A stretch of DNA of 64,000 nucleotides from Candidatus Zixiibacteriota bacterium (GCA_024280835.1 JAJRPJ010000012.1:62001-126000); one strand, 5' to 3'; positions 9,457-29,976 are shown, counted from the stretch's first letter. Translations and numbers: made by a program. Notes: generated by a model not told the origin, from the letters alone.

Positions 9457-9491
9457 AAGTCTACATCACTCTCTGCATTACCACAGGAGCA

Positions 9492-11217: not shown

Positions 11218-11231
11218 GACGACGACCTGTA

Positions 11232-12932: not shown

Positions 12933-13265
12933 TTAGATAGGCATTCGTATCATATCCTTATATGCCTCGATTAGTTTGTTGCGAATTTCCAGCAACAAAT
13001 CGAAGGCAATACCTGACTCTTCACCAGCTATCATCACTTCATGAAGATCAATGTCATCGCCATTGAGAAAAGCGCTCCCTGCATATTCAGCGGCATTTCC
13101 GAGTTGGTCAACATTTTCAACAAAGCTATTCAACACCGAACCAAAACTCGGTTTAGCCACTTCACCAACTCCTAAAGGCTCCACTGGAATCGGAGTCTTC
13201 GGAATCGATTCAGGAGCTTCGAGCCCTGGCAACAGCCTCAAGCCTGAAATTGGAATACCACTCAT
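12933..13265 (-). CDS. fliE: Flagellar hook-basal body protein FliE
   Basis: 110 residues. The C-terminal half has the FliE pattern FGSVLNSFVENVDQLGNAAE, then DLHEVMIAGEESGIAFDLLL and EAYKDMIRMPI. FliE joins the MS ring to the proximal rod. The start codon overlaps the stop of the upstream unknown gene by four bases (ATGA), so the two are coupled. The Pro-rich N-terminal 35 residues are not conserved in the family. Confidence 0.93.
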   Translation of the reverse strand: MSGIPISGLRLLPGLEAPESIPKTPIPVEPLGVGEVAKPSFGSVLNSFVENVDQLGNAAEYAGSAFLNGDDIDLHEVMIAGEESGIAFDLLLEIRNKLIEAYKDMIRMPI

Positions 13266-13654: not shown

Positions 13655-13718
13655 GTTTTCTATCCTATCTTTAACTGCTAACTATTCTTACTCTTTTTTG
13701 TTCGAACAAAGATATCAT

Positions 13719-14213
13719 CTAGATGTCCATAGCCTCGTTGAGCATTCGTTTTGAAGTTGAGATAGTCGCGATATTGGACTCGTACGCTCGGTTAGCGGCA
13801 ATCATATCTACCATCTCATTTATCATCTCAATATCTGGCATCTGTACATAGCCGTCACTGTCAGCATCAGGATGGCTCGGATCAAAGACGAGCTTGAAAC
13901 TCGACTGTGAATCCTGAACTTGCTCTCCGCTGACTTTGTTTATCCCTTGAGAGCTATTAACTGAAGTCGACTGACCTTTGATATGTCGTGAGTTAGTTCG
14001 CGACAGCTTGTTATGAGCAGTGCGCATCTCTTTTCCAAATGAAGGTCGAGAATTAGCTTCGCTGACCACAACTCTCTGCCGACGATATGGACCGCCTTCT
14101 GGTGTGCGCGAAGTATCAATATTAGCAATGTTCTCTGAGACAACATCCATTTTTTGACGTTGGACAGTCATACCAGTTGCTGCAACGTCTATCGCTCTAA
14201 ATATTCCAGACAT
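13719..14213 (-). CDS. flgC: Flagellar proximal rod protein FlgC
   Basis: 164 residues: N-terminal IDVAATGMTVQRQKMDVVSE and NIANIDTSRTPEGGPYRRQ, then DPSHPDADSDGYVQMPDIEM and the C-terminal EMVDMIAANRAYESNIATIS. All are signature segments of FlgC, one of the four proximal rod proteins, exported across the inner membrane by the flagellar type III system. A variable loop of about 40 residues (roughly 60-100) is longer than in E. coli. It lies 45 bases after flgB. Confidence 0.95.
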   Translation of the reverse strand: MSGIFRAIDVAATGMTVQRQKMDVVSENIANIDTSRTPEGGPYRRQRVVVSEANSRPSFGKEMRTAHNKLSRTNSRHIKGQSTSVNSSQGINKVSGEQVQDSQSSFKLVFDPSHPDADSDGYVQMPDIEMINEMVDMIAANRAYESNIATISTSKRMLNEAMDI

Positions 14214-14258
14214 AATTCGTTCTTTCTCTTATCTCAATCAACCAAGTAAGCGCTATAA

Positions 14259-14678
14259 CTATTTCTGTCCTGTTATCGCTTGGCGTAAACCACTGAATTT
14301 ATTCTTCAACATTCTAGCGGCGACTGTATAGCTAATTTGATTCGTCGCCATTTCTGTCATTTCTTTATCGATATTGACACTATTGATTCCATTAGTCTTG
14401 ACGCTTTTGTCGACAATAATTTTTGGAGAACCACCTTTGCTCATGCCCAGCGGGATGTGCCGTGAATTGGTTGTGACGCCCACTAAACCACCTGAGGCAT
14501 CCTTTGAGCGTTGGAATTCTTTCTGAAAATCAATACTCTTGGCTTCGTACCCAGGAGTTAGGACATTGGCAACATTACCAGCGGTCAACTTGTGGCGCAG
14601 TGAAGTCAAATTCAGATAGTTTCTGAACTTCGGCACTCCGACCTTGTCGAGAATAAAACTTTGAATCATGTTGCTCAT
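14259..14678 (-). CDS. flgB: Flagellar proximal rod protein FlgB
   Basis: 139 residues with LRHKLTAGNVANVLTPGYEA at the N-terminal side and DKEMTEMATNQISYTVAARM towards the C-terminus, as expected for FlgB. It is the first gene of the long flgBC-fliEFGHIJ operon. A sigma54-type promoter lies about 90 bases upstream (14762-14782). Confidence 0.94.
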   Translation of the reverse strand: MSNMIQSFILDKVGVPKFRNYLNLTSLRHKLTAGNVANVLTPGYEAKSIDFQKEFQRSKDASGGLVGVTTNSRHIPLGMSKGGSPKIIVDKSVKTNGINSVNIDKEMTEMATNQISYTVAARMLKNKFSGLRQAITGQK

Positions 14679-14761
14679 AGTTTGTCTATCTAACTGTTTT
14701 GTTCTTGGTTCATTATCTATCGAACTATTAGAACTTGCGCATAGCGCTATCCCGCAATGCG

Positions 14762-14782
14762 GTATTGCAAGTAGGGCGCCGA
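14762..14782 (-). promoter_or_regulatory. Sigma54 (-24/-12) promoter of the flgB-fliJ operon
   Basis: The minus strand reads TCGGCGC, five bases, TTGCAATAC. GG at 14780-14779 and GC at 14768-14767 are ten bases apart, as sigma54 requires. It is nearly the same as the flgF element at 5311-5331 (17 of 21 positions). Transcription would start near 14755, giving a leader of about 77 bases before flgB. The neighbouring FleR/FlrC-like activator is the obvious candidate to drive it. Confidence 0.72.
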
Positions 14783-14962
14783 AACCATGCAGGCTTCTAA
14801 TGTGTTGTGATTGCAGGTGTTAGCAGATTGCGTACTGGAGGCTCAACTGCCGTCTCTGAAGATTATTCCGTACTTGCGGACAGATTTTCCGCTGACTAGA
14901 GAATGAGCTTCTCAATGGGGTTAATTAGAAAGGGGGGTATTCTTGTAAATTGTTCAAGAATT

Positions 14963-15748
14963 TTAATTAACAAACAAAGCTGAGCTTGGCTCTTTGCGTG
15001 ACAAAGAGTTGGTTAAGACAACTATATCAACGCGCCTATTTTTCGAACGATTCTCAATTGTATTATTCGGTCGAATTGGACGAAACTGCCCATAACCAAG
15101 AGCTGAAATTCGCTTTCCAGAGATTCCATGCGCATTAATAAAATAGCGAACAACTTCGGTAGCTCTAACTGACGACAATTCCCAATTGGACGGAAATCGT
15201 CCAGTCGATATAGGAGAATTATCTGTGTGGCCCTCAACTCGAATGTGATTGGGAATCGAGTCTAACTCAGATGCAACCAGATCAAGAACTTTCATCGCAC
15301 TGCCAGACAATCTTGAATCACCGGCTCTGAAAAGAGCAGACTCCATAATGTGAATGACCAGACCACGTTCTGTAATTTCCGCTTCAAATTTTTTCTTATC
15401 CAGTCCTTGTTCAAAAGCTTTCTGCTCCAAAGTCCGCAACATCACTCTCTCGTTACTAATTTTGAGTATGCCGCCACCTTCAAGCTCATCAAGTTCGGCT
15501 TCCATTAGTGGGTCTCGACCTTCACCAGTAAGAATCCCCGAGAGAGCTTTTTGTACACTACCAAAACGTGTAGCATCAAGATGAGACATCGAAAACATGA
15601 TTATGAAGAACGCCAAGAGAAGTGTAATCAGATCTGCGTAAGTTAGTAGCCACCTATCTCGGACTGGAGATGCTCCAGAGACATTTCGGCGACCTCGAAC
15701 GCTTGGGAATCTTCGTTCGCTAATACTTGATTGGTTGTCCATGGACAT
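14963..15748 (-). CDS. motB: Flagellar motor stator protein MotB
   Basis: 261 residues. One transmembrane segment near residues 31-53 contains WLLTYADLITLLLAFFIIMF with the ion-binding aspartate (Asp38 in this numbering) that drives rotation. The C-terminal OmpA-like domain has RVEGHTDNSPI and SSVRATEVVRYFI, used to clamp peptidoglycan. It is translated after motA (5 bases between). I cannot tell from sequence alone whether the stator uses protons or sodium. Confidence 0.95.
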   Translation of the reverse strand: MSMDNQSSISERRFPSVRGRRNVSGASPVRDRWLLTYADLITLLLAFFIIMFSMSHLDATRFGSVQKALSGILTGEGRDPLMEAELDELEGGGILKISNERVMLRTLEQKAFEQGLDKKKFEAEITERGLVIHIMESALFRAGDSRLSGSAMKVLDLVASELDSIPNHIRVEGHTDNSPISTGRFPSNWELSSVRATEVVRYFINAHGISGKRISALGYGQFRPIRPNNTIENRSKNRRVDIVVLTNSLSRKEPSSALFVN

Positions 15749-15753
15749 ATGCG

Positions 15754-16518
15754 TTACATCTCAGTATCACGAATTGCAGGAGAAAGAAAGGACTGCAAAC
15801 GACGACGGATAAGGCGTGGAGTCTCACCTGCATGGATCGCCATAACGCCTTCAGCGATCAATTCCATTGAAGTTACTTCATCCTCATGGCGAGCGCGAAG
15901 TTTATCAGCAATCGGAATATAGACGATATTAGCCATCCCAACTCCCCATAGAGTAGCGATGAAAGCCGAGGCAATCGCAACGGCCATTTTCTCTGGGTCG
16001 CTTACATTGCCGAGTGTATGAACCAAGGCTAGAACTGTTCCTAGAATTCCTAGTGTCGGCGAATAGGCTCCCATGCGATTGAAGAGGTCGATTCCACGCT
16101 GATGACGTAGTGTCAAGTATGAGATCTCCGTGTAAAGAACATCTCGCAAAGTATTGCCATCGACCCCATCGATTACTAACAGAGTCGCCTTGGCAAAAAA
16201 TCGATTTGAGAGGGTTTTGAGTTCTCGTTCTAAGGAGAGGACTCCCTCACGACGGGAGCGCTCAGCTATACTAACGATTTGATCAATTAGTTTTGGGTTA
16301 TTTTCTTCCGTACCGAAGAATGAAATTCGTAAGTATGCTGGAATACTGAGCGCTACATGGCCACTTGATCCAACAATAGACACACCGATAGTTCCACCAA
16401 CCACGAGTATCATTGGGGCCAAAAGAAAGACAGATTCCGCCTTTCCGCCTTCCATCCAAAACGATGAAACGACAGCGGCAACTGCTGTTAGTATTCCTAT
16501 TACTGAAGCAATATCCAT
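15754..16518 (-). CDS. motA: Flagellar motor stator protein MotA
   Basis: 254 residues from ATG 16516-16518, which has GAGAG at a good distance; an ATG four codons upstream (16530) is possible. The start MDIASVIGILTAVAAVVSSF is typical of MotA/PomA. Four hydrophobic segments and the conserved cytoplasmic loop plus MGAYSPTLGILGTVLALVHT and AIASAFIATLWGVGMANIVY are present. MotA forms the outer pentamer of the stator around the MotB dimer and its cytoplasmic charges act on FliG. It forms a two-gene unit with motB downstream of the sigma54 activator gene. Confidence 0.95.
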   Translation of the reverse strand: MDIASVIGILTAVAAVVSSFWMEGGKAESVFLLAPMILVVGGTIGVSIVGSSGHVALSIPAYLRISFFGTEENNPKLIDQIVSIAERSRREGVLSLERELKTLSNRFFAKATLLVIDGVDGNTLRDVLYTEISYLTLRHQRGIDLFNRMGAYSPTLGILGTVLALVHTLGNVSDPEKMAVAIASAFIATLWGVGMANIVYIPIADKLRARHEDEVTSMELIAEGVMAIHAGETPRLIRRRLQSFLSPAIRDTEM

Positions 16519-16769
16519 ATTTACTCTCATGATAGCCGCAAGACTGCGGCGCTGTTTGTTACCATGTAGCGAACCTAGCTTAGTCCGCGCTATGACATCC
16601 CAAAATGGAACGCCCGCTGTATCCTTGCATCGGCGCTCAATATTTGAACTTTAGCTATTTATGAGAGATATATTCCACGAGTAAGCCACTACGCGGTTTT
16701 CAGCGACGTCGAAAGTAGTAATTCTGGAGATACGAGATAAATTGAAATGGGTAGATCGCGCTTAAATTT

Positions 16770-18146
16770 CTATTCCGCGTTCGCAGAACCGTTTTCGCCA
16801 ATATCGAACCCGCTATATTCTTTGAGTTTATTGCGAATTGTCCGTGCCGATACATCCAAGCTTCTAGCTGCCTCAGATTTGCTACCACCAAATCGTTTGA
16901 CACGTTCAAGAATGTAGTGTTTTTCCAGTTCATGCAACGACATGCCTTCAAATTCAAGCTTGTTGGCCAGTGGTTTTCGGATAGTCGTGCCGTCCAGAGA
17001 AAAATCACCGACTGAAATTGAATCTCCGCAAGACATCACCACTGCGGCATGCACAGTGTTTTCCAATTCGCGAACATTACCTGGCCAAGGGTATTTCCTC
17101 AACAGTTCAAAGACCTCTCGGTCAACTGGCTTAACAGCCTTATTGTTTTCAGCGGAAAACTTCTTCATGAAGTAGTCTGTTAGTTGTGGGATGTCATCGC
17201 GACGTTCACGCAATGGCGGGACTTCCACACCTATAACATTCAAGCGAAAAAAGAGATCTTCGCGAAAGTGACCTTCTGCGATTGCCACAGGAAGATCACG
17301 ATTACTACTGGCGATAATTCTAACATCAATCTTAACAGTTTCAGCTGAGCCAACTTTCTCAATTTCTCTTTCTTGCAATGTTCTTAGCAGTTTGGCTTGA
17401 GTTTCATAGGGCATTTCAGAGATTTCATCCAACAGCAGTGTTCCGCCATTAGCCAATTCGAAGCGTCCTGAACGGGCTTGAATAGCGCCTGTAAATGCGC
17501 CCTTCTCATGACCAAACAGTTCCGACTCAATCAAGTTTTGATTGAGAGCCGCGCAATTCAGCTTAACAAAAGGCCCATCGGCTCGATCGGATTCTTCATG
17601 GATGGCGCGCGCTATTAGTTCTTTACCTGTGCCAGACTCGCCAGTTATCAGAACTGTGGCTTTTGATGGAGCCGCCAAACGAATACGATCGAAGATATGC
17701 GTCATGGGCTTGGACGACCCGACTATATCACTGTATCGTCTAGCGCTATCTAGCTTTAACGCAGTTACTTGACGCTTCAGCTTAAGGTGCTCAACTGCTT
17801 TTTGGACACGAATTTGAACACTCTCGGGAGACATGGGCTTCATGATAAAGTCAAAAGCGCCAAGTTTCATCGCCAGAACTGCCGTCTCGACAGAACCGAA
17901 ACCTGTCATCATTATGACAATCGTCTTGGGCGCTCTTTCACGAACGTGCGTCAACATCTCCATGCCATCCATTTGGCCCATGCGTATATCTGATAGAATT
18001 ATCTCAAACGATTCTGTTTTCAAACGTTCAAGAGCCGACTCTGCAGAGTGAGCGCTATGTAATTCATACTTGTCGAAATCTAGGGTTTCTCTCAAGAACT
18101 CAACTACAATCGAGTCATCGTCAACTATAAGAATTTTTACTTTCAT
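16770..18146 (-). CDS. Sigma54-dependent response regulator, FleR/FlrC-like
   Basis: 458 residues: receiver domain with phospho-acceptor Asp53 (LSDIRMGQMDG), AAA+ domain with Walker A GESGTGKE (169-176) and the sigma54-contacting GAFTGA loop (216-221), and a Fis-type helix-turn-helix near 425-447 (SKSEAARSLDVSARTIRNKL). It is therefore an intact NtrC-family activator. Position 5 bases after the kinase gene and between motAB and the chemotaxis operon suggests it is the flagellar activator equivalent to FleR/FlrC/FlgR, acting on the two -24/-12 promoters in this window. Confidence 0.93.
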   Translation of the reverse strand: MKVKILIVDDDSIVVEFLRETLDFDKYELHSAHSAESALERLKTESFEIILSDIRMGQMDGMEMLTHVRERAPKTIVIMMTGFGSVETAVLAMKLGAFDFIMKPMSPESVQIRVQKAVEHLKLKRQVTALKLDSARRYSDIVGSSKPMTHIFDRIRLAAPSKATVLITGESGTGKELIARAIHEESDRADGPFVKLNCAALNQNLIESELFGHEKGAFTGAIQARSGRFELANGGTLLLDEISEMPYETQAKLLRTLQEREIEKVGSAETVKIDVRIIASSNRDLPVAIAEGHFREDLFFRLNVIGVEVPPLRERRDDIPQLTDYFMKKFSAENNKAVKPVDREVFELLRKYPWPGNVRELENTVHAAVVMSCGDSISVGDFSLDGTTIRKPLANKLEFEGMSLHELEKHYILERVKRFGGSKSEAARSLDVSARTIRNKLKEYSGFDIGENGSANAE

Positions 18147-18151
18147 GAATC

Positions 18152-19579
18152 CTACTCCAGATTGTCAGTTATCTCGCTAGTCGAGTTGAAACGTTCAACA
18201 TCAGATAACGGTAATTTTATGTGAAAAGTCGTGCCAGCGCCAAGTGTCGAATTGACAGTAATTTCGCCGCCATGTGCAATTATCAGTTTTCTAGCCAAAG
18301 GCAAACCCAACCCAGAGCCACTCGCTTTGGTGGTGTAGAATGGCCGAAAGATGTCACGTTTGATATCATCAGTCATACCAGGGCCGTTATCTCGAATAGC
18401 AAAGTACGCGTACTTCGAACCAGCGGGTACTTCCTCAACTAATAAGTCGCAAGTAATCGGTCCTTTGGCAGCTTCGTGCGCATTGCGAATAATATTTGTA
18501 ACAGCTTCCCGAAATACTAACTGGTCAACATCCACTACCACTTTGTCTTTTGAATTACTGATAGTCACGACATTTTCAGCTTCGGCGCCCCATTCAGCGC
18601 TACCCTGTTTCAAGCGCTCATGGTAGTTAGAATCTTTGCGATTTGGATCATCTTGCTGTGATCGATTGTATTCATGCTCATCATAGAGTCTTTCATTGTA
18701 CTGCCTGACAACCTTCTTCAAATAGCGATTCAGGTTCGTCGCGCGCAGTGTCAAATCTTCGGCGCGTGAAAAACGTAGGAGCGCATCAATAACGCGTTCA
18801 AGATTCCCAACCCCGCGTAATATCATCTCTGCATGCGCTTTGTTCTTCGTGCCTTTTGATGGTTGGGTAGCAATTAGTGAAGCAAACCCTTTGACCCCGA
18901 CGAGAGGATTGCGAACTTGATGCGCAACCGTAGCCGCCATTTCGCCTATTGCCGCCAGCGACTCTAAGCGGGTCATTTTGCGTTCCATTTGCCGTGTTTC
19001 GGTAATGTCCTGAAACGCTTCAACCGAGCCGAATGACTCGCCGTTCTTATCTAGAAGCTGCGATGAACCCCACAAATATGTTCTCTCTGCTCCATCTCCC
19101 CCCACAAAGGTTCTCTCAACTCCACGCTGTGGAGCAAGCAAAGAGTTTCTTGAGGTGGGTTCTTTCAAGTCATTACTCTGGTCAACGATATTTTCGGCGG
19201 GGATGTCAAAGCTAATAATTTCACTCAAACTAGCATTAACTGATTCTGTGGCTTTCACAGAAAAGAGCGATTCGGCCGCAGGATTCAAATGTGTGATTTT
19301 GTTGTCGCGATCGACAACGATAATACCAGTGGATACGGACCTGAGGACACTATTGAGGAATTCCATCGCCGCATGATTTCGCCTAGTCAGAGCTTGTAAA
19401 GATTCATTCGCCTCTTCAAGTTCTTTGGCTTGTCTTTGACTCTCATCTTTCAAATCGAGGTATTGACGTCGCAAACGGTTTAGGACTGTCGTAAAAGTTT
19501 TGTATGACTCGACAAAGCCTTCAGTATCACTACTTTCGGTATGCAATGCAGGTTTTTGCAATAATTCTAGTTCGTCCAT
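18152..19579 (-). CDS. Cytoplasmic PAS-histidine kinase, FleS/FlrB-like
   Basis: 475 residues with no membrane segment. A coiled region (about 30-70) leads into a PAS domain (about 72-195, with VSTGIIVVDRDNKITHLNPA), the phosphorylation helix with His220 (ATVAHQVRNPLVGVKGF) and an ATPase domain with DNGPGM and ASGSGLGLPLARKL. FleS, FlrB and FlgS flagellar kinases are likewise soluble and PAS-linked and pair with a sigma54 activator. The AGAGGG site 5 bases before the ATG is strong. A charged, Asn/Asp-rich insert (about residues 290-325) interrupts the region between the His helix and the ATPase domain. Confidence 0.9.
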   Translation of the reverse strand: MDELELLQKPALHTESSDTEGFVESYKTFTTVLNRLRRQYLDLKDESQRQAKELEEANESLQALTRRNHAAMEFLNSVLRSVSTGIIVVDRDNKITHLNPAAESLFSVKATESVNASLSEIISFDIPAENIVDQSNDLKEPTSRNSLLAPQRGVERTFVGGDGAERTYLWGSSQLLDKNGESFGSVEAFQDITETRQMERKMTRLESLAAIGEMAATVAHQVRNPLVGVKGFASLIATQPSKGTKNKAHAEMILRGVGNLERVIDALLRFSRAEDLTLRATNLNRYLKKVVRQYNERLYDEHEYNRSQQDDPNRKDSNYHERLKQGSAEWGAEAENVVTISNSKDKVVVDVDQLVFREAVTNIIRNAHEAAKGPITCDLLVEEVPAGSKYAYFAIRDNGPGMTDDIKRDIFRPFYTTKASGSGLGLPLARKLIIAHGGEITVNSTLGAGTTFHIKLPLSDVERFNSTSEITDNLE

Positions 19580-19712
19580 ATAAACCCTCTACTATCCTTG
19601 CGACATCCTGGCAATGAAACGGATGACATGAAAAGTTACGAGAGGATGGACTCAACTTCAACAAATATAATCCCAAAACCCCAAAATCCCAGAACGGATT
19701 TGCAAGACATTC

Positions 19713-19749
19713 CAAAGAAAAAGCGGCCTGTTATCTCTAACCGACCGCT
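19713..19749 (-). terminator. Intrinsic terminator of the chemotaxis operon
   Basis: On the minus strand: AGCGG, three bases, GTTA, loop GAGA, TAAC, three bases, CCGCT, then TTTTTCTTT. It lies 40 bases after the cheB stop and separates the chemotaxis operon from the kinase gene. Confidence 0.8.
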
Positions 19750-19787
19750 CGTTTGACACTGTTTTTATGCTTGAGAAGGAAATTGAG

Positions 19788-20882
19788 TTAGAAATAGCTC
19801 ATGATCTCATCTGTGACATGCTCTATTGGAGCTACGATATCAGCTATGTGACCGTCGACAATTGCCCTTGGCATGCCGTAGACTACACAGGATTCTTCAT
19901 TTTGAGCAATTACCTGCCCACCGACTTTGTTTAGTTCCTTGCAGGCCGCAAATCCGTCATTCCCCATACCTGTCAGGATAACTCCCAAAGTTCTCTTGCC
20001 ATATTTCTTTACTACAGAATCCATCATGACATTGACACAGGGCTTATAGAGAGTGTCTGCTGGTGTTTGCGAGAGACGAATCATTGGTTTACTTGCTCCA
20101 TACACCAAGGTCATATGGCTATCGCCAGGAGCAATATAGACATGACCAGCCAAGGCCTCTTCTCCATTCCGAGCCTCAGTGACTGTCACTTCTGAAATCG
20201 AATTGAGTCTATCCGCTAAAGACTTTGTGAACTTCGGCGGCATGTGCTGAACAATCAAAATAGGAACAGGGAAGCTTTTCGGGAGACGCGTTATGACGGC
20301 CTGCAAAGCTGGCGGACCACCAGTGCTCGACCCAAGCGCCACAACTTTTATTGCAAATCGACGTCTGTCGACTTTCTTGCCAGCTCTGGAGGCTGGAGCT
20401 GCTTTCGCAGCAGATTTTCCACTCGTGGCTTTTTTCCAGCTTAGGCGTTGACGCGCCCTAGCCATTAGTATTGACTTACGCCTCGCAATGTTCTTAATCT
20501 TCTCAAGCAACTCTTCTTTGATTTTGACAATATCCAATGAAACAAAAGAAAGCTCCTTTGGGATAAAATCAACTGCCCCAAGATCCATTGCCTCAAGTGT
20601 AGCAGCAGCGCCTTCTGTGGTGATGCTACTAACCATCATCACAGGTGTCGGCTCTTCCTCCATTATGTGGCGAAGAGCGGTCAAACCGTCCATGCGCGGC
20701 ATTTCAACATCCATTGTCACAAGATCAGGTTTGAGCTCTTTGACCTTCTTGACTCCTTCGGCCCCATCTCGAGCCGTGGCAATGACTTCGATCTCAGGAT
20801 CAGACTCCAGCATCATCGTAATCGCTTTACGCATGAACGCTGAATCATCTACAACTATAATTCTTGTCTTTGCAGTCTTCAT
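19788..20882 (-). CDS. cheB: Chemotaxis methylesterase/glutaminase CheB
   Basis: 364 residues. The receiver domain has phospho-acceptor Asp58 (TMDVEMPRMDGL). A long Lys/Ala-rich linker (about 135-175) leads to the methylesterase domain with catalytic Ser186 (GSSTGG), His213 (VQHMPP) and Asp309 (TGMGNDG). It removes methyl groups from receptor glutamates when phosphorylated by CheA. It is the last gene of the operon, 54 bases after cheA. Confidence 0.97.
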   Translation of the reverse strand: MKTAKTRIIVVDDSAFMRKAITMMLESDPEIEVIATARDGAEGVKKVKELKPDLVTMDVEMPRMDGLTALRHIMEEEPTPVMMVSSITTEGAAATLEAMDLGAVDFIPKELSFVSLDIVKIKEELLEKIKNIARRKSILMARARQRLSWKKATSGKSAAKAAPASRAGKKVDRRRFAIKVVALGSSTGGPPALQAVITRLPKSFPVPILIVQHMPPKFTKSLADRLNSISEVTVTEARNGEEALAGHVYIAPGDSHMTLVYGASKPMIRLSQTPADTLYKPCVNVMMDSVVKKYGKRTLGVILTGMGNDGFAACKELNKVGGQVIAQNEESCVVYGMPRAIVDGHIADIVAPIEHVTDEIMSYF

Positions 20883-20936: not shown

Positions 20937-22805
20937 TTAGTTCGCCATTTTTTGGGCCAAACCAAACAATCCAGCTACATCGACAATTAGCCGTACGCGT
21001 CCGTCTCCGAGAATTGTCGCTCCCGCCAGACCTTCTATATTGCCAAATAATTTGCCCAAAGACTTGATAACAACTTCTTCTTGGCCGATCAAATCATCAA
21101 CGACCAAACCAAGACGACTTTCTGCCAATCCAATCACAACTACATTGGCGCTTGACTCTTTTGATGGTGTCCAGCCTTTGCCGTCACGAAGTACACGTGG
21201 CAAAAACAGTAGCGGCAGAACCGAATCCCGCAATTGAATCACTTCAGTTCCATTGACATACTTAACATCGTCAAAGCCAACATTTACTATCTCATGCACA
21301 CTCGCTAATGGGATGATATAGATGTCCTTGTTAGCGCGGACAAGCAACCCCTGAATAATCGACAGAGTTAGCGGCAATTTGATAGTGATAGTTGTACCTT
21401 TCCCGCGAGTAGAAGCAATCTCAATGATGCCATTGAGTTTTTCAATATTGGAACGGACAACATCCATACCAACTCCTCTACCGGAAACATCGCTAACAAC
21501 TTTAGCAGTTGAAAAGCCTGCGCCAAAGATGAAGCGAAATATTTCACCATCGCTCATTCGCTCAACATCCGCGGCTGTCGTTAGACCACGCTCAATGGCT
21601 TTACTCTTGATAGCTTCAAGGTCAAGTCCTCGGCCATCATCGGTGATCTCGATGATAATATTTGATCCCTGGGAATATGCGCTTAACAAGACGGTACCAA
21701 CCTCGGGCTTGCCAGCGGCAATACGCTCCTCAGGTGGTTCGAGACCGTGGTCGCAAGAGTTTCGAACAAGATGCACTAAAGGATCACCGATCTCTTCAAT
21801 AACCGTCTTGTCTAACTCGGTGTCTTCACCTTGCAAAGTAAGGTTGATTTTCTTGCCAGCATTGGCTGCCAAGTCTCTTACGACACGAGGAAACCGGCTA
21901 AATACTTTCCCTATAGGAAGCATGCGTAGTTTCATAACCGAATTCTGTAACTCAGTTGTCACAAAACTAATCTGTGATGCTACACTTGTTATTCTTTCTA
22001 GAGAATCGTGTTCGGAGGTTGTGCCGTTGGCTATTTCGGCATTGACCGAAAGTAAGCTATTCCTGCCTAAGACAAGTTCACCAACGAGATTCATCAGCGA
22101 ATCCAATCTGTCAACTCCGACTCGAACAGTTTGCTCAATCTTCCGTCCACCTGATTTGTTGTCATTTTTGGCTGGAGAGGCCGCTGCTTCGGTAGATGTC
22201 TTTGGTTTATTATTTGACTCTTGAGCCAGTGATTGGGCCAAAGCGGCTTTGATTTCAGCGTCGAATGCCGCCTCATCAAACTCCCCTTCATCTTCATTGG
22301 AGTCAGGTTCAGCTTTAGGATCGCTGGTTGCGCCTGCCTTATCAGAAGCCTGGCTCTTCCCTGAATCTGCTTGAGAATTGTTTATTCTCTCAAGCTCAAC
22401 AATCAAACCAGAAACGTCACGCTTAACAATTTTCTCATTGCGAACATCATCAAGCAATAACTTTAAATTATCCAGGCCTTCGAGGAGAGCATCCATGACA
22501 TCTTTTTCGACATGGATTTCACCCTTGCGCAGACGATTGAGAACATCTTCCATCTTATGGGTGAGATCTGTAATCTGATCTAATCCAAGGAAACTTGAGT
22601 TGCCTTTGATTGTATGAGCTGCCCTAAAGATATTATCAAGTAGCTCCAAATCATCGGGAGACGATTCCAAAGCGACTAGATCATTATCTAGTGACTCAAT
22701 GATATCACCAGCTTCAACAAGGAAATCATCAACGAATTCCTTCATATCATCTGGCACTTGCAGCGCTTCAGGCGCCATTACTTCTTCTTCAACTTTTGGA
22801 CTCAT
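20937..22805 (-). CDS. cheA: Chemotaxis histidine kinase CheA
   Basis: 622 residues: Hpt domain with phosphorylatable His64 (RAAHTIKGNSSFLGL), acidic linker (about 145-215), dimerisation domain (RVGVDRLDSLMNLVGELVLG), ATPase with LVRNSCDHGLEPPEER, DDGRGL and GRGVGMDVV, and a C-terminal CheW-like domain (from about 500). The P2 CheY/CheB-binding domain seems to be missing; the linker is too short and low in complexity for it. The first ATG overlaps the end of cheZ by 17 bases; another ATG nine codons in (22778) also fits. Confidence 0.96.
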   Translation of the reverse strand: MSPKVEEEVMAPEALQVPDDMKEFVDDFLVEAGDIIESLDNDLVALESSPDDLELLDNIFRAAHTIKGNSSFLGLDQITDLTHKMEDVLNRLRKGEIHVEKDVMDALLEGLDNLKLLLDDVRNEKIVKRDVSGLIVELERINNSQADSGKSQASDKAGATSDPKAEPDSNEDEGEFDEAAFDAEIKAALAQSLAQESNNKPKTSTEAAASPAKNDNKSGGRKIEQTVRVGVDRLDSLMNLVGELVLGRNSLLSVNAEIANGTTSEHDSLERITSVASQISFVTTELQNSVMKLRMLPIGKVFSRFPRVVRDLAANAGKKINLTLQGEDTELDKTVIEEIGDPLVHLVRNSCDHGLEPPEERIAAGKPEVGTVLLSAYSQGSNIIIEITDDGRGLDLEAIKSKAIERGLTTAADVERMSDGEIFRFIFGAGFSTAKVVSDVSGRGVGMDVVRSNIEKLNGIIEIASTRGKGTTITIKLPLTLSIIQGLLVRANKDIYIIPLASVHEIVNVGFDDVKYVNGTEVIQLRDSVLPLLFLPRVLRDGKGWTPSKESSANVVVIGLAESRLGLVVDDLIGQEEVVIKSLGKLFGNIEGLAGATILGDGRVRLIVDVAGLFGLAQKMAN

Positions 22806-23466
22806 TAGATTGTCTCACGAGGTTATCAATATCAGACTGGTCTGTATGTTTGAACTCCATGTCAGCATGAGGGTCAAAGCTTCTCTCCTTACGCGCTGGA
22901 GCGTTTTTCAAAACTTTCACAGGACTGGCGCTACTACCATCATCAACTAAATCACCAATAATCAAGGCGATCTTAGCATCAACTTCCTCCAGCAAGCTAG
23001 CGGCATGGTTGATTTGTTGGGTTGTGATGTCTTGAAACTGAAGAGCGTCCATGATAGCAAAAGCATCATTCTGAGAACGGTTGGCAACCTCTTCTGCTTT
23101 TTCTAAGAGAGCATTAACCGACTTATTACCAGCTCCACTGTCAGTGAGAACATTCATGGCCTCATTCAAATGGCTGATAATATCCACTTGTTGTGCTGAA
23201 ATGTTCTCCACCATGTCCATAACTCGATGAGCCGCCTGCTCAGTCTGGGACGAAATACGATCCAAATGCGTGGTCGCTTTTGGAAGAGTATTTCTTGTGT
23301 CAGCCAAGGGGCCTTGTATTTCACGCAAGCTCGCTGATAATTCTTCAATAGTCTGCTTAAGCGCACCAAGACCACCCTTCAGAGTGGAACCTACTTGTGG
23401 GACGCTAGCCTGCTCATCCATGTTGTTTGTATCAATGCTGGTTGCATTTTTTTTCTTGTTCCCCAT
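22789..23466 (-). CDS. cheZ: CheZ-like CheY-phosphate phosphatase
   Basis: 225 residues, mostly long helices. The central helix contains IMDALQFQDITTQQI (residues 138-152), which matches the CheZ active site FQDLTGQ; Asp146 and Gln150 stand in the place of E. coli Asp143 and Gln147. The C-terminal tail TDQSDIDNLV (208-217) resembles the CheY-binding peptide of CheZ (QxDVDDLL type). Genes on both sides are cheY and cheA, which is the expected context. CheZ dephosphorylates CheY-P and so ends the motor signal. The rest of the protein is divergent. Confidence 0.82.
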   Translation of the reverse strand: MGNKKKNATSIDTNNMDEQASVPQVGSTLKGGLGALKQTIEELSASLREIQGPLADTRNTLPKATTHLDRISSQTEQAAHRVMDMVENISAQQVDIISHLNEAMNVLTDSGAGNKSVNALLEKAEEVANRSQNDAFAIMDALQFQDITTQQINHAASLLEEVDAKIALIIGDLVDDGSSASPVKVLKNAPARKERSFDPHADMEFKHTDQSDIDNLVRQSNESKS

Positions 23467-23470: not shown

Positions 23471-23848
23471 CTAGGCTCCTTTAAGAATCTCGTCGATTTT
23501 CGACTTTAGTGTGTCTGGGGTAAAGGGCTTAACAATGTAGTTATTAACCCCCGCTTTTAACGCTTCGACGATATCCTCTTTGACCGAACGTGTGGTAATC
23601 ATCAATATTGGGATATTGGCATGCTCTGGCTTGCTTCTCAAATTTGTCACAAAAGACAGACCATCCATTTCTGGCATGTTCCAGTCTGTTATAACAAAGT
23701 CAATTTTCTCAGCCTCCATTTTCGCCAAAGCGTCTTTTCCATGCTCGGCTTCCACTATATCAGTGAATCCAGCCCTTCCAAGTGTATTAATGATTATCCG
23801 ACGCATTGTCGGAGAATCATCAACGGCAAGAATTTTCATATTTGCCAT
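23471..23848 (-). CDS. cheY: Chemotaxis response regulator CheY
   Basis: 125 residues, a single receiver domain: acidic pair AVDDSPTMRR, phospho-acceptor in ITDWNMPEMDG, TTRS as the switch Thr region and the Lys of IVKPF. The DWNMP motif and RRII segment are typical of true CheY that binds FliM. It is placed between a second receiver gene and cheZ. Confidence 0.94.
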   Translation of the reverse strand: MANMKILAVDDSPTMRRIIINTLGRAGFTDIVEAEHGKDALAKMEAEKIDFVITDWNMPEMDGLSFVTNLRSKPEHANIPILMITTRSVKEDIVEALKAGVNNYIVKPFTPDTLKSKIDEILKGA

Positions 23849-23865: not shown

Positions 23866-24279
23866 TCAATCTGCATTATGATTATTATTAGCTATTATCT
23901 TATCTGGGTTCAGAAGTCTGCTGACCTCTAATAACAATGTATCCGGACGGAACGGCTTCACGAGATACGAGGTAGCGCCAACTTCTATTCCTCGCTCTTT
24001 ATCTTCGCTGCCCTCTTCTGACGACAAAATGATTATTGGAAGCTCCTTGTGAGCAACATCATTGCGCAGAGTGGCAATAAGTGTGTAGCCATCGACATTG
24101 GGCATGTTCAAATCAGTAATGACCATGTTGATCTTACCGTCTAGCGCTGAAATTTTCTCCATAGCATCCATGCCATCGCAAGCGGTGACAACCTGATAGC
24201 CCTTATTCTTTAATGCGAACGAGACGAATTTCACAACCGTCGTTGAATCATCAACAACTACTATTTTTTTCTTATCCAT
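23866..24279 (-). CDS. CheY-like stand-alone receiver protein
   Basis: 137 residues, a single receiver domain (VVDDSTTVVKFVS, phospho-acceptor in VITDLNMPNVDGY, LSSEEGSEDKERGIEVGATS, LVKPFRPD) with a short Asn-rich tail. It differs from the neighbouring CheY in the region around the phosphorylation site and probably acts as a phosphate sink, an adaptation factor or an input to a different target. It is 3 bases after cheR and 17 before cheY. Confidence 0.88.
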   Translation of the reverse strand: MDKKKIVVVDDSTTVVKFVSFALKNKGYQVVTACDGMDAMEKISALDGKINMVITDLNMPNVDGYTLIATLRNDVAHKELPIIILSSEEGSEDKERGIEVGATSYLVKPFRPDTLLLEVSRLLNPDKIIANNNHNAD

Positions 24280-24282: not shown

Positions 24283-25332
24283 TCAACCGCCTACCTTACC
24301 AGCCAGAGCCTCTTGCGCTTCTCGCCTTGCCTTTATTTTCTTAAGCAACTCTAACGCTTTTGTAGCCCCACTAGGTTCACCGGCTCCTGTTTTGGATACA
24401 GCGCGTGAGCTAGCGACTCGTGGAACTTGCGTTGAAGTTCTTCTCGAAGAGCCACTTATTTTTTCCTCATCCTTGCCCCCTTCGTCCTTAACATAGACTA
24501 GGGCTCCCTTATAGTACTTGAGACTGAACGCCTTGGAGATTCCATGTAGCGTCTCAGAGTGACCGATAAGCATTTGACCACCTGAGGCCAACGCTTGATA
24601 ATACGCACGAACAATTTTGCGCTTCACGTCATCCGAAAAATAAATCATGACGTTACGACAAAATATTACATCAAGATTTTTGTACATGGATAATTTTTTT
24701 GTATCATTCAAATTAAGCTGAACAAACTTAACAAGCGCTTTAATTTCACGCTTGATAACAAACTTCTCGCCATTCTTATCAAAGTATCGCGTCAACTTAT
24801 CCGGCTTGACATAGCGCAGTGTCGTCCCCTCATACTCACCAGCTCGGGCTTTTTGAAGGACTTTATCACTGATGTCATTAGCAATTATCTCAACATTCCA
24901 ACCTGGTTCTGACTTTAGCGCTTCCTTAATGATGATGCCCAGAGTATACGGCTCTTCACCTGTTGAGCATCCAGCTGACCAAATACGTAAAGTTTTCGGT
25001 CCTCCCATTTTACGCTTGGCCTCCAGTATCTCTGGCAAGACCGCTGTGGCAAATGCATCGAGCTGCGGCTCGTTACGGAAATAATAAGTCTCGTTTGTCG
25101 TAACTAGATTCATCAGCTCGTCGAATTCACGATGTGACGTATCATATTTTACCCGATAGAAATAGTCTCTGTATGTCGCAACACCAAGATCATCCATACG
25201 CTTAGCCAGTCTGCTTTGAAGCAGATAGAGCTTATTGTCTCCGAAGTACATTCCCGACTTTTCATGAATGTATTCACGGAACGTACAAAACTCTTCGACG
25301 CTCAGTGTTCGCTGTTCACCAGTTGATGGCAT
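24283..25332 (-). CDS. cheR: Chemotaxis receptor methyltransferase CheR
   Basis: 349 residues. The N-terminal helical domain (about 10-80) is followed by the SAM-binding domain with RIWSAGCSTGEEPYTLGI, IIANDISDKVLQKARAGEY and LDVIFCRNVMIYF, which define CheR. It methylates receptor glutamates. A C-terminal Ser/Arg/Lys-rich tail of about 60 residues (from about 285) follows the catalytic domain and is not part of the family core. Confidence 0.96.
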   Translation of the reverse strand: MPSTGEQRTLSVEEFCTFREYIHEKSGMYFGDNKLYLLQSRLAKRMDDLGVATYRDYFYRVKYDTSHREFDELMNLVTTNETYYFRNEPQLDAFATAVLPEILEAKRKMGGPKTLRIWSAGCSTGEEPYTLGIIIKEALKSEPGWNVEIIANDISDKVLQKARAGEYEGTTLRYVKPDKLTRYFDKNGEKFVIKREIKALVKFVQLNLNDTKKLSMYKNLDVIFCRNVMIYFSDDVKRKIVRAYYQALASGGQMLIGHSETLHGISKAFSLKYYKGALVYVKDEGGKDEEKISGSSRRTSTQVPRVASSRAVSKTGAGEPSGATKALELLKKIKARREAQEALAGKVGG

Positions 25333-25411: not shown

Positions 25412-25798
25412 CTAAACTCTGTTTACTTTTTCTTTACGTGCCGAAGCTTGTTCAACAGACTTGAAAAGCTTTGGCATATTGAACGGTTTGACTACATAAT
25501 CATCAACACGTTGCTGAAGAGCGCGAATTGCGCTCTCAACAGATGGATAACCAGTCACAACCACGATAGGTTGATCGGGCTTGGACTCTTTCATTCGATC
25601 GATCATAGTCGAACCGTCCATCTCGGGCATTTTTAAGTCTGTCAAGACAACATCGAAATCTTTCTCTTCAAATGCCAATAGCGCTGTCTCACCGCTGTTA
25701 GAAACAGTTACATCCCACTCACGTTCATTAAAAAACTCGTAGAGCAAATCTCTTATCAAAAGTTCATCATCAACAATTAGGATATTGTTCCGCTTCAT
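25412..25798 (-). CDS. Stand-alone receiver protein
   Basis: 128 residues, one receiver domain (ILIVDDELLIRDLLYEFF, phospho-acceptor in VLTDLKMPEMDG, VVTGYPSVESAIRALQQ, YVVKPFN). The VVTGYPS and ALQQRVDDYVVKPF style is nearer to NtrC-type receivers than to CheY. It has no output domain. Its ATG overlaps the HEAT-repeat gene stop by four bases, so these two are coupled and may work together. Confidence 0.88.
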   Translation of the reverse strand: MKRNNILIVDDELLIRDLLYEFFNEREWDVTVSNSGETALLAFEEKDFDVVLTDLKMPEMDGSTMIDRMKESKPDQPIVVVTGYPSVESAIRALQQRVDDYVVKPFNMPKLFKSVEQASARKEKVNRV

Positions 25799-27708
25799 CG
25801 TGTCGCCCCAGATTGCAGACTAGACATTGCAGATTCTACAGCGGCTACAATAGTTGTATCACTATCCGTTGCAATGGTTCTCAAAAACACTATCATGGAT
25901 TCATCACGCATATCTGCAATCGCATTAATAGCGGCTAATCGAAGCGCGACCTCCCCCGACTCCGCCTTTGCTTTAAGCAAATTCTTCGTCTCGGTAGAAT
26001 TGATTGTTGCTAGTGTAGTGATGACGTGAAACTGCAACCACAAATCGTCTTCATTCAAGAATGGAGTGAGCAATGAGGTAGCGTCTTGTGAATGATATTT
26101 CGCTAAGGTAGTCATTGCTACTCTTTGAACCGTTTCGTTTTCATCATTAATAAGCGCTAGTAATGAATCAACAGTGGGAGCCTCACCCATACGACACAAA
26201 GCCTCAATTGCAGCTTTACGAACTTGAGGGTCAGTGTGCGATAAAGCCCCTCGCAGTGGCTCAAGGACATTATCCTCGCCAATCCAACCTAGAGCATTGG
26301 CAGCTAATCGTTGACGTTCAGGATCCGTTGTTTGTAAGTCATTTGTAAAATGATCCACAATTCGCTGTCCACCAATAGTGACTAAGGCGCCAACACACAC
26401 TTCGCGGACATCACAATACTCATCATTAAGGCCCGTTATTATTAGCCCTGTGGCTTCCGCGTCGCCTATCCAACCTACGCCTCGATAGGCGGCCGACCTG
26501 ACATGACCAACTGGATCTTTAACCATCCTTTTCAATTCACTAAGTGAAGTTGGGCTATCTACTCTACCAAAGATAGAAGCAACTCTAATTCTAATTTCGG
26601 GATCCGAATCGGAAGCAAGAGGAATCAACTTCTCAATCGTTTCGACACGCATACAGCCCAGCAAAGCATCTAACAGAGACATTCTATCTGTCAGATTCGC
26701 GTCTTCAAATTGTTGAAGTATCATCTGATCTAGATCATGGTAAATGTGCCTACATTGGTCGACAAGTTGACACCAAGTAATTGAGTCAATTTTCCCAACC
26801 GACGCGAGCAATTCTAGAACGAGTCCCTTATCTCTCCATATATCTATGTTTCGTAACGAGAACCTACTTATACCATCATCTTCCTCTAATAACCCTTCGA
26901 TAATAAAGCTGCGAAGGCGTTCACCGGAGACATGACCGCGTATATCAACGCTAACATTCTCTGATATTCTGAGGGCGGACTTAAAAGCTTCTACTGCAAC
27001 AACAACTGAATCGCCACTGATTAGCTCAGTCAACTCCTTAAGAGCCTGGGGCGAACCAATCTCCCCCAAGGCTTCTGAAGCGGTAAATGCCAAAAGAGGA
27101 TCACCAGAAGAAAGGTTGGATAATAGAAACGGAATCGCTTCAGGACTTTTTATACGCCCAAGCGCTTCAATGGCCAAAGGACGAACATCCGCATTCTTTT
27201 CACCAACTTCAATCAACGGAGCTATAGCTTTCGGGTCACCTATTAGACCCAGAGCTTCAGCGGAGCTACAACAGACATTGATATTGTCATCCCACAAGGC
27301 TTGACACAGACAGTCCACACTACGGCTGTCTCCAATTAGACCAAGCACATCAGCAATGAATTTACGAACATCATGATCATCACTACTCATCCACTCCAGT
27401 AACGCTGGCACGGCCTCAGGACCAATGCGTACAAGTATCTCTGCTGCAAGATTACGGGTTGTAATACTTTCAGCGCCAAGGAAATCAGAAAGCAAAGCTG
27501 TTGTGGTTTCGCCTTTTACTTTAGATAGCGCATCAGCGGCCATTTCGCGAACATTAGCGCTGGCGTCCTCCAATGAGATAACCAACCCTGCAATTGCTTC
27601 ATCAGAGTCTATCGTTGATAACGCCTCGACAGCTTCCTCACGGACACTAACTTCTTCCGCTTGAAGCATGTCTAACAATTCTGAGACATCTTGTACTATC
27701 TGATCCAT
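25795..27708 (-). CDS. Large HEAT-repeat protein in the chemotaxis operon
   Basis: 637 residues made of about 18 HEAT/PBS-lyase-like helical repeats (for example VREEAVEALSTIDSDEAIAG, VREMAADALSKVKG, VRKAAIEALCRMGEAP). There is no signal peptide, membrane segment or catalytic motif, so it is likely a cytoplasmic scaffold. A less regular stretch around residues 260-350 may break the superhelix in two. It follows the STAS gene (34 bases) and overlaps the next receiver gene by four bases. HEAT proteins tied to CheR or receiver domains occur in other bacteria, but the function here is unknown. Confidence 0.9.
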   Translation of the reverse strand: MDQIVQDVSELLDMLQAEEVSVREEAVEALSTIDSDEAIAGLVISLEDASANVREMAADALSKVKGETTTALLSDFLGAESITTRNLAAEILVRIGPEAVPALLEWMSSDDHDVRKFIADVLGLIGDSRSVDCLCQALWDDNINVCCSSAEALGLIGDPKAIAPLIEVGEKNADVRPLAIEALGRIKSPEAIPFLLSNLSSGDPLLAFTASEALGEIGSPQALKELTELISGDSVVVAVEAFKSALRISENVSVDIRGHVSGERLRSFIIEGLLEEDDGISRFSLRNIDIWRDKGLVLELLASVGKIDSITWCQLVDQCRHIYHDLDQMILQQFEDANLTDRMSLLDALLGCMRVETIEKLIPLASDSDPEIRIRVASIFGRVDSPTSLSELKRMVKDPVGHVRSAAYRGVGWIGDAEATGLIITGLNDEYCDVREVCVGALVTIGGQRIVDHFTNDLQTTDPERQRLAANALGWIGEDNVLEPLRGALSHTDPQVRKAAIEALCRMGEAPTVDSLLALINDENETVQRVAMTTLAKYHSQDATSLLTPFLNEDDLWLQFHVITTLATINSTETKNLLKAKAESGEVALRLAAINAIADMRDESMIVFLRTIATDSDTTIVAAVESAMSSLQSGATR

Positions 27709-27741
27709 ACTACTTCCTCTATACTATCCGTATTAGACTGC

Positions 27742-28095
27742 TTACTGAACGGGCATCGTGCTATTGTAGGAGGCAATAGCCGCTTCCTCTGTCTCGTATA
27801 TTTCAAAAATATGAGACAGTTGAGTAATTTCGAAAATCTCTGCTACGTAGGCAGCAAGATTCGACATGGTTAATCTGCCATGCTTCAATCTGGTTTCCTT
27901 CATCAGAGAAACTAAAGCTCCAAGTCCTGAACTATTGATAAAGTCAACTTTGGCCAAATTCAAATGAATACGGACGTTGCCGGCTTCAAATTCTTGTTGA
28001 ATCTTCTCCTTGAGAGACGCTCCCGAGGCAAGATCAAGACGACCCGACATATTCAAAATCGTGACGTTTCCTGACTGATTCTTGGTAATGTTCAT
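27742..28095 (-). CDS. STAS-domain anti-sigma factor antagonist
   Basis: 117 residues from ATG 28093-28095, which has AGGAGG 4-9 bases upstream; a longer start at 28122 is unlikely. One STAS domain with VTILNMSGRLDLASGASLKE and the conserved VDFINSSGLGALVSL, in which Ser55 is the likely phosphorylation site. Proteins of this type (SpoIIAA, RsbV) are inactivated by phosphorylation by a HATPase kinase and reactivated by a PP2C phosphatase. Both partners lie immediately upstream. The start overlaps the kinase stop (ATGA). Confidence 0.92.
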   Translation of the reverse strand: MNITKNQSGNVTILNMSGRLDLASGASLKEKIQQEFEAGNVRIHLNLAKVDFINSSGLGALVSLMKETRLKHGRLTMSNLAAYVAEIFEITQLSHIFEIYETEEAAIASYNSTMPVQ

Positions 28096-28583
28096 GATTC
28101 CTCCTGCAGTTTCGAAGCCCACCCTTTGGAAACAGAGACTTCGATATCATTTGAAATGTTTCTTTTTGTTTTCTCTCGTTTGAAGACTAAGCGCAGCGAT
28201 AAGCCACCGTTTGCGGCGGTAGACAGAATGACCTCGTCTGCTCGCTCATACATTAAGTCTATTCCTCTCCCACCTTCATCAAGTGGAGCAGGTCTTTTGC
28301 GCTTTTCGATAAGCGCAATGGCGCTTTGCCCTTCGTCTGTAACATCGGCAATAAAAGCTGTCATATTAGCTGAAAGACGTAATCTAACTCGCTTGGATGT
28401 GTCAAGTCGATTGCCGTGGAGCACAGCGTTGTTAAATGCCTCCGACACACAAAGCTTGATATCTTGAACCAAGCGACCTTCAATGTCGTTATCGGCTAGG
28501 AACTTACCTAAATCGTCAAACATCAATGTCTCAGATTCAACAATTGAGGCATAGTCTTTTTCAAAGGCGCTTTCCCTATTCAT
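28092..28583 (-). CDS. RsbW-type HATPase serine kinase/anti-sigma protein
   Basis: 163 residues from ATG 28581-28583, which has GAGGAAGGG just upstream. The N-box CVSEAFNNAVLHGN and the G-box EGGRGIDLM identify a GHKL-fold kinase of the RsbW/SpoIIAB type. Such proteins phosphorylate STAS antagonists and often hold a sigma factor; no sigma gene is nearby, so the target may be a chemotaxis or other protein. The start overlaps the phosphatase gene by 8 bases. A Lys/Arg/Asp tail of about 25 residues extends past the domain. Confidence 0.88.
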   Translation of the reverse strand: MNRESAFEKDYASIVESETLMFDDLGKFLADNDIEGRLVQDIKLCVSEAFNNAVLHGNRLDTSKRVRLRLSANMTAFIADVTDEGQSAIALIEKRKRPAPLDEGGRGIDLMYERADEVILSTAANGGLSLRLVFKREKTKRNISNDIEVSVSKGWASKLQEES

Positions 28584-29976
28584 CACACCCTTCCTCATCA
28601 GACTTCTTCAACAACTGGTTTACTCGAATCTGTAACACAGTAAAATCATCTTGTGACTCTTCTCCTGAGCCAATAGCAAACGTAGTGATATCAGACTGCA
28701 AAGCATTGCAGAATTTCTGAGGAGCGTGACTTACATTCTCTAGGACGAACTTTTTAGTTCGTTCGCGCCCAAAGAGATTACCAAGCTTGTCCTCTGATTC
28801 AGTTATTCCATCACTGAATATTGTTATTGTATCTCCACTCGCTACGTCGACACATTCGTCCTTGAATTTCAAGCCCTCAAATTGACCCACGATAGTTCCA
28901 CCAATTGCTAGCTCTTCAATCTTTGAAATAGAACTCTTGTAATGCAACGCGGGTACATGCCCACCATTGCAGTAAGTCAAAGTCCCGCCTCGCATGTCGA
29001 ACTTACCAAACCAAATCGTTGCAAACATTCCGCGATCTTTGATAATGCCCTCGGACAATGTGTCATTGAGACGACCAGCCAACTCAGAAACCGACATTTC
29101 AGGCTCATAGCGAAGCAATGACTTGATTATCCCCACGCAGGCTGACATCACCAAAGCCGATCCAACGCCTTTACTGGAGACATCTCCAAGAATCACCACA
29201 AATTGATCATTGGGAAGGGGAATCACCTCATAGAAATCTCCACCAACTTCGCGCGCCGACGCATAGACAACACCGATATCAACACCCTCATGCTTCAAAG
29301 CGCCAGGAAGAATCGTTTCCTGAACCTCTCTAGCAATCAGCATATCCTGATCCATTTGCTGTTTTTGGAGCGCCTCATGTAACAGGCGTGAGTTCTCTAT
29401 GGCGATTCCTAAAAAGTGATTTAGCGACTCAAGCGTTTCCAAGTCAGTCTTGTCGAACAGTTCGCCACGCTCTTTGTTAAGAATCACAACCATTCCATGT
29501 TTTCGCTCCCCTGAGCAAATTGGAACGGCCAGCAAGCTTGTAACATGAACTCCTTTGCGGCAGGTAATTTCTCCAGAGTTGACGAGGATACTTTCTTTCG
29601 AGTCTGTGGCTTGTTTGAGTAAATGTGTTTCTGGTAGAACGTAAATCTCTTCGAGGATAGAACCGTCCATACCCCAAGCGATCTTTGTTGCCAATGCCCC
29701 GTCTTCATCAAGCAGAATCGCTCCCACTTCACCTGAGACTGCACGCAGACTCATCTCCATCATGACCGTCATGACTTTGTCAATATCTGTGATGGATGCA
29801 ATTATTGCCCCCATCGTCTCGATGTCTTTTAGACGTAATTTTTGCCGACCGAGTTCAAGGCGCACCTGAAACAAGCGCTCCTGTTCATCAATGGAACGGC
29901 CTTCCGTAGAGGTCGTCAGCGGTTCTACGGTCGAATCATGTTTTGCCAATTGCTTCATACCTAGTGAATCGGCCAC
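28576..29976 (-). CDS. GAF-PP2C (RsbU/SpoIIE-type) serine phosphatase
   Basis: 466 residues, starting at a GTG (29974-29976); an ATG six codons later is possible. A short coiled coil (about 30-50) precedes a GAF-like sensor domain (about 50-205), and a SpoIIE-type PP2C domain follows (about 235-455) with the metal-binding segments GGDFYEV, GDVSSKGVGSALVM, CNGGHVPAL, FSDGITES and DDFTVLQIR. It would remove phosphate from the STAS protein encoded downstream. The GAF domain suggests a small-molecule or redox input. It is the first gene of the chemotaxis operon; no clear promoter was seen in the 184 bases upstream. Confidence 0.92.
   Translation of the reverse strand: MADSLGMKQLAKHDSTVEPLTTSTEGRSIDEQERLFQVRLELGRQKLRLKDIETMGAIIASITDIDKVMTVMMEMSLRAVSGEVGAILLDEDGALATKIAWGMDGSILEEIYVLPETHLLKQATDSKESILVNSGEITCRKGVHVTSLLAVPICSGERKHGMVVILNKERGELFDKTDLETLESLNHFLGIAIENSRLLHEALQKQQMDQDMLIAREVQETILPGALKHEGVDIGVVYASAREVGGDFYEVIPLPNDQFVVILGDVSSKGVGSALVMSACVGIIKSLLRYEPEMSVSELAGRLNDTLSEGIIKDRGMFATIWFGKFDMRGGTLTYCNGGHVPALHYKSSISKIEELAIGGTIVGQFEGLKFKDECVDVASGDTITIFSDGITESEDKLGNLFGRERTKKFVLENVSHAPQKFCNALQSDITTFAIGSGEESQDDFTVLQIRVNQLLKKSDEEGCDE

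Follow-up and report, generated by a model that had tools for sequence, protein, structure and literature searches.

Several partner switches connected with motility or chemosensory genes are already known. The HptB–HsbR–HsbA switch of Pseudomonas aeruginosa controls flagellar motility and acts with FlgM (PMC5085249), the CrsR–CrsA switch of Shewanella oneidensis belongs to the che1 locus and controls RpoS (PMC9855816), and HmpU/HmpV/HmpW governs motility in Nostoc (PMC8256260). Among HEAT-repeat proteins, OE2401F, a HEAT_PBS protein of Halobacterium salinarum, is needed for motor switching (PMC2666748). Here, we describe a locus in which a GAF-PP2C phosphatase, an RsbW-type kinase, a STAS antagonist, a HEAT-repeat protein, and a lone receiver are encoded side by side, at positions 25,412 to 29,976 of a 64,000-nucleotide stretch (hereafter, the window) from a Candidatus Zixiibacteriota bacterium (GCA_024280835.1, JAJRPJ010000012.1:62001-126000). 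The source genome (3.3 Mb, 96% complete) has Candidatus Zixiibacteriota bins as its nearest named relatives. The locus is best read as two layers, a flagellar switch module and a HEAT scaffold tied to chemotaxis, and we give this reading a probability of roughly 0.58. The five genes were indeed found where the original prediction, made from the sequence alone, had placed them, so that the cassette itself is confirmed by coordinates and Pfam matches:

28576..29976, minus strand: GAF-PP2C phosphatase of the SpoIIE/RsbU type (Pfam SpoIIE 1.3e-37, GAF_2 4.9e-10)
28092..28583 (alternative longer start at 28598), minus strand: serine kinase of the RsbW/SpoIIAB type (Pfam HATPase_c_2 4.4e-17)
27742..28095, minus strand: STAS-domain antagonist (STAS E 1e-20; TIGR00377, 82.1 bits against a cut-off of 53.45)
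25795..27708, minus strand: HEAT-repeat solenoid protein (Pfam HEAT_2, E 1e-80)
25412..25798, minus strand: single-domain receiver of the NtrC type (Pfam receiver, E 5e-28)

The genes are packed as tightly as had been claimed (overlaps of 4–8 bases or short gaps): when the conserved start codons are used, neighbouring genes among the five overlap by 8, 4, and 4 bases, the STAS–HEAT gap measures 33 bases, and the gap from the receiver to cheR 79 bases.

Like HptB–HsbR–HsbA, the present cassette is a PP2C/kinase/STAS switch whose locus also contains cheR and flagellar genes (PMC5085249). However, in that system receiver, phosphatase, and kinase are fused in HsbR, which is fed by HptB, whereas here each of the three is a protein of its own, the receiver resembles NtrC, NtrB and NtrC are neighbours, and a HEAT protein is added; no lone Hpt gene was found among the cassette neighbours in the window. 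CrsR–CrsA is also a switch encoded within a chemosensory locus, but CrsR is presented as a single regulator that includes an anti-sigma domain, and no mention is made of a HEAT protein (PMC9855816). As here, phosphatase, STAS protein, and kinase are separate proteins in RsbU/RsbV/RsbW and in HmpUVW of Nostoc (PMC8256260). An NtrC-type receiver, NtrBC, and a HEAT protein are, however, not described for these two systems. The motility system of Nostoc served by HmpUVW is, moreover, non-flagellar. With RsbU–RsbV–RsbW, the cassette shares a PP2C phosphatase with metal-binding aspartates, a GHKL kinase with N and G boxes, and a STAS phospho-serine, but the cognate sigma factor gene is absent: none was found among the window genes from 16770 to 33162, and FliA is encoded on another contig. 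The gene for OE2401F lies between che and motility genes (PMC2666748), and the HEAT gene described here lies in a che region. Nevertheless, OE2401F serves an archaeal motor and has DUF439 (CheF) partners, with neither a partner switch nor an abutting receiver described, whereas the present gene adjoins STAS and receiver genes, not DUF439/CheF, in a locus of a bacterial flagellum. The original prediction had credited HEAT with no known role, thus overlooking the halobacterial protein, a possible though not necessarily homologous counterpart. The combination of separate switch proteins, an NtrC-type receiver, NtrBC, and a che-tied HEAT protein was not found in the open-licence literature searched. 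In the best reading, what is new is not the switch as such but a flagellar/chemotaxis variant of it, to which a HEAT adaptor associated with a single class of chemotaxis system has been added.

The flagellar character of the switch emerges from the comparison of neighbourhoods. A full-length HEAT ortholog is present in about half of the 60 genomes of the order, and in the HEAT-bearing genomes the arrangement DUF512–Der–PP2C–RsbW–STAS–HEAT–receiver–che–NtrB–NtrC is almost invariant. At the matching place in HEAT-less flagellated genomes, PP2C–RsbW–STAS–receiver–NtrB–NtrC–MotA–MotB is retained, and most or all che genes of the operon are gone along with HEAT. The order PP2C–RsbW–STAS–receiver–NtrB–NtrC, followed by MotA wherever the contig extends that far, recurs in four further families of the class that have no HEAT, CheA, CheB, or CheR. 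In 63 complete STAS–NtrB intervals, PP2C was found in 61, RsbW in 57, and the receiver in 61. Thus, the cassette is present and linked in relatives, as the original prediction required, but it splits into a flagellar part and a che-linked HEAT part. The notion of one unit heading a chemotaxis operon has to be given up, since PP2C, RsbW, STAS, and the receiver stay beside NtrBC and flagellar genes where the che genes are gone; the proposed link of the phosphatase–kinase–STAS switch to motility genes is supported and conserved.

Across 110 genomes, the cassette PP2C (scored present at 360 bits or more) and FliG occur together in 78 and are both missing from 20, with six genomes having PP2C only and six FliG only (Fisher p 8e-12, a value that ignores the kinship of the genomes). 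Among the mismatches, the cassette is cut by a contig end in G063 and G082, and the contig of G069 begins within HEAT; G112, which has FliG but no cassette PP2C adjoining mot/fli genes, may be a true exception. The module is also kept in flagellated genomes that yielded no CheA at E <= 1e-30 and no MCP at E <= 1e-10, e.g., G025, G027, G029, G034, G044, G053, and G055, so that in those genomes the switch core is independent of chemotaxis signalling. PP2C, RsbW, STAS, and the receiver are thus a flagellar module rather than a chemotaxis input, and the che block is optional; that these four act as a flagellar regulator is highly probable.

The distribution of HEAT follows that of the che genes. 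In the same 63 intervals, HEAT is accompanied by CheR in 29 and stands without it in two, CheR never occurs without HEAT, and 32 have neither; the corresponding figures for CheA are 28 with both, 31 with neither, three with HEAT alone, and one with CheA alone. On a tree of STAS, NtrB, and NtrC, which does not separate gain from loss, HEAT requires at least 10 changes and CheR at least 11, and among 10 independent contrasts the two genes change in the same direction in eight and in opposite directions in none (sign test p 0.008). The genus of the window (the window and L032) sits on a long branch (1.51) of this tree. Another CheA class (about 800 amino acids, 37% identity) occurs elsewhere in some HEAT-less genomes, so HEAT tracks this particular chemotaxis class and not all chemosensory systems. 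We consider it likely that HEAT acts with chemotaxis.

The AlphaFold model of HEAT is a confident solenoid (pLDDT 92) of 43 helices, corresponding to about 20–21 repeats instead of the 18 counted previously. Conservation is high at about residues 36–156 and 400–500 and low at 220–370, and two conserved arms would suit two binding sites, i.e., a bivalent scaffold. The orthologs are full-length across the phylum. A single-sequence search of named genomes gave no match, and an alignment search retrieved Zixibacteria and a few bins that were unnamed or carried the label Calditrichota or GN15; one of those labelled Calditrichota is G054, which belongs to this order. Other relatives were sought and set aside: the sole further match in this genome is a cyclophilin with HEAT repeats and not a paralog, and in the PDB the model finds by fold just generic solenoids and designed alphaRep proteins, and by sequence mostly alphaReps. 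In each of the 44 loci measured, the junction between HEAT and the receiver lies within -32 to +7 bases, far beyond chance.

The lone receiver itself does not fall into the CheY-type grouping of the receiver tree but clusters with the NtrC receivers (branch support 84), and its top NCBIfam receivers are AtoC, NosR, FixJ, ZraR, and NtrC; judged by sequence, it is NtrC-like and not CheY-like. The active-site residues D10, D11, D54, T82, and K104 and the helix-1 motif DDELLIRDLLY are invariant in 19 aligned receivers from loci with and without HEAT. Retention of the motif irrespective of HEAT points to a constant partner that is neither HEAT nor CheA. Since the receiver is NtrC-like, NtrB is the obvious candidate kinase and presumably phosphorylates it. 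In many relatives, a second receiver gene lies between the lone receiver and cheR (L045:9279-9647, with the same placement in L149, L150, and L156); it is absent in the genus of the window.

The switch proteins retain their catalytic motifs. The metal-binding aspartates of PP2C (D247, D265, D389, and D443/D444) are invariant in the ortholog alignment, the kinase conserves N-box E53/N57, D88-x-G90, and G110-R111-G112 at 95% or more (numbering from the longer start), and the NSSGLG phospho-serine motif of STAS is invariant (19/19). This conservation at the metal, ATP, and serine sites alike is consistent with a working switch. The kinase scores above the HATPase_c_2 cut-off but below the SpoIIAB and RsbW equivalog cut-offs.

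These observations suggest the following scheme. The first layer would be a phylum-wide companion of the flagellum, in which a signal sensed by the GAF domain sets the phosphatase. Phosphatase and RsbW kinase would act in opposition on a single serine of STAS, and the resulting state of STAS would be relayed to flagellar regulators. The NtrC-type receiver would most likely be charged by the neighbouring NtrB and work beside NtrC. In the second layer, the two-armed HEAT scaffold would join the first to CheR–CheY–CheZ–CheA–CheB where these are present. That HEAT could link both systems is something we infer, as the original prediction did, and the interpretation offered there is, as a whole, partly supported. 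A physical bridge between the two layers is a tentative suggestion, with the odds somewhat against it. A little more doubtful is the fuller version, which casts HEAT as a chemotaxis component not described before, providing a physical coupling between the chemotaxis signalling complex and a flagellar control module of the partner-switch/NtrC type.

Several observations weigh against the two-layer reading. HEAT is retained in G022 (L060), where all che genes of the locus are gone, including those for CheY, CheZ, and CheA, and another CheA class is found elsewhere; in G028 (L047), which lacks CheA and CheB; in G080, without CheR, CheA, and CheB at the locus; and in G015 (L058), with a reduced CheA-like gene and neither CheZ nor CheB. 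Its retention in these four genomes implies that HEAT is useful, or slow to decay, without this chemotaxis system. A relaxed evolution of the receiver following HEAT loss was considered and not seen: although the two genes always abut, the receiver does not change faster, whereas STAS and PP2C evolve somewhat faster relative to NtrC, a weak hint from few branches. The NtrC affinity of the lone receiver has a branch support of just 84%, and the evidence as a whole comes from genomes of uncultured organisms, from which the molecular interactions are deduced. G022, G028, and G015 are the flagellated genomes best suited to asking what HEAT does without chemotaxis.

A different output of the switch should be considered, namely, that STAS or RsbW binds FlgM or FliA and thereby controls sigma-28 and late flagellar gene expression, HEAT merely tuning the process. 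FliA is above the cut-off in 55 of the 60 relatives and is also encoded in this genome, where its gene has an flhG-like neighbour; a FlgM-like protein, detected with a model built from three Pfam FlgM matches, is found in 50 of the 60 and in this genome, elsewhere than the module. Since both proteins exist here, an output like that of HsbA on FlgM is possible by analogy with the cheR/flgM locus of P. aeruginosa (PMC5085249). Nevertheless, fliA and flgM lie outside the module, whose conserved neighbours NtrB and NtrC belong to the sigma-54 tier, and we regard control of sigma-28 as unlikely. The idea of RsbW as a FlgM stand-in arose when Pfam FlgM matched only three of the 60 relatives and was dropped after the built model found FlgM-like proteins in most of them, which makes RsbW unneeded as a replacement anti-sigma factor. 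A target of the SigB/F/G type was rejected as well, the second sigma factor retrieved with TIGR02479 being a 281-amino-acid RpoD-like protein. FliA of this genome (L190:4816-6039) comprises 407 amino acids with an N-terminal Lys/Arg/Thr-rich extension, and most relatives have frames of about 295 amino acids.

We find it no more probable that HEAT acts at the motor downstream of CheY, like the halobacterial HEAT_PBS protein, and owes its place beside an unrelated switch to history. HEAT is lost along with che genes, and OE2401F interacts with CheD and with the DUF439 protein OE2402F, which in turn is a partner of CheY, and deletion of OE2401F stops motor switching (PMC2666748). However, in all 44 loci the HEAT gene abuts the NtrC-type receiver and not cheY, it persists in G022 with CheY, CheZ, and CheA gone from the locus, and the resemblance to the haloarchaeal protein considered here is one of HEAT repeats and locus position. 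Operon inertia, with neighbours that share no function, could explain why the whole stretch is collinear within the order, the housekeeping Der and DUF512 genes included. Outside the order, Der/DUF512 is absent beside the module in 17 of the 17 loci checked (one with only 1 kb of upstream sequence), in HEAT-less families and in HEAT-bearing outer families alike. Since the module still touches NtrBC where Der/DUF512 is gone, its flagellar adjacency is not plain inherited order; HEAT and CheR have, in addition, been gained or lost jointly and repeatedly, and inertia is a very improbable account.

Downstream, the cassette does run on into the che genes as originally described, but with two cheY-like genes instead of one, and a flagellar cluster follows:

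24283..25332, minus strand: cheR (Pfam CheR 6e-57)
23866..24279, minus strand: cheY-like receiver 1 (Pfam Response_reg; a clade of its own in the receiver tree)
23471..23848, minus strand: cheY (best NCBIfam match CheY, 128 bits, below the cut-off of 189)
22789..23466, minus strand: cheZ (Pfam CheZ 2.4e-12)
20937..22805, minus strand: cheA with Hpt, dimerisation, ATPase, and CheW domains (Pfam)
19788..20882, minus strand: cheB (Pfam CheB_methylest 3.6e-63 and receiver)
19700..19760, minus strand: terminator-like hairpin and U-run past cheB (RNA fold -16.5 kcal/mol, z -1.3)
18152..19579, minus strand: ntrB-type PAS histidine kinase of the flagellar locus (Pfam PAS, HisKA, HATPase_c)
16770..18146, minus strand: ntrC-type sigma-54 activator (Pfam Response_reg, Sigma54_activat 5e-71, HTH_8)
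660..16530, minus strand: motA, motB, flgB, flgC, fliE, fliF, fliG, fliH, fliI, fliJ, rod/hook flgG-type genes, flgA, flgH, flgI, and flgJ (open reading frame translations; only fliG by family search, PF01706)

Upstream of the PP2C gene lie genes for Der and a DUF512-type protein, both named from translations. The single terminator assigned to the end of the che block is plausible, given an 8-bp stem with a U-run behind it at 19760–19700, but its folding energy is unexceptional against shuffled sequences. No sigma-70-like promoter, which according to the original prediction could split the units, was found on the minus strand between 25332 and 25412; a scan for the sigma-54 pattern gave matches at chance level, and one for sigma-28 gave two weak matches, both outside the cassette. 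In G046, cheA is split into two frames (L044:11861-13617), by a frameshift or an assembly error. Within the flagellar cluster, the opposite strand (6192-7577, plus) encodes a secreted-looking protein with a C-terminal sorting motif of the type IX secretion system (T9SS) type, a signal that fits the Candidatus Zixiibacteriota origin.

In the reading preferred here, the flagellar control region throughout a phylum has a partner switch as a permanent constituent, which persists where chemotaxis has disappeared, and one HEAT protein is singled out whose presence tracks chemotaxis genes over about ten changes on the tree. If the coupling through HEAT is true, chemotaxis and flagellar gene expression would be set together. 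The locus thus offers a concrete, testable case of a scaffold that possibly ties chemotaxis to flagellar gene control in uncultivated bacteria.

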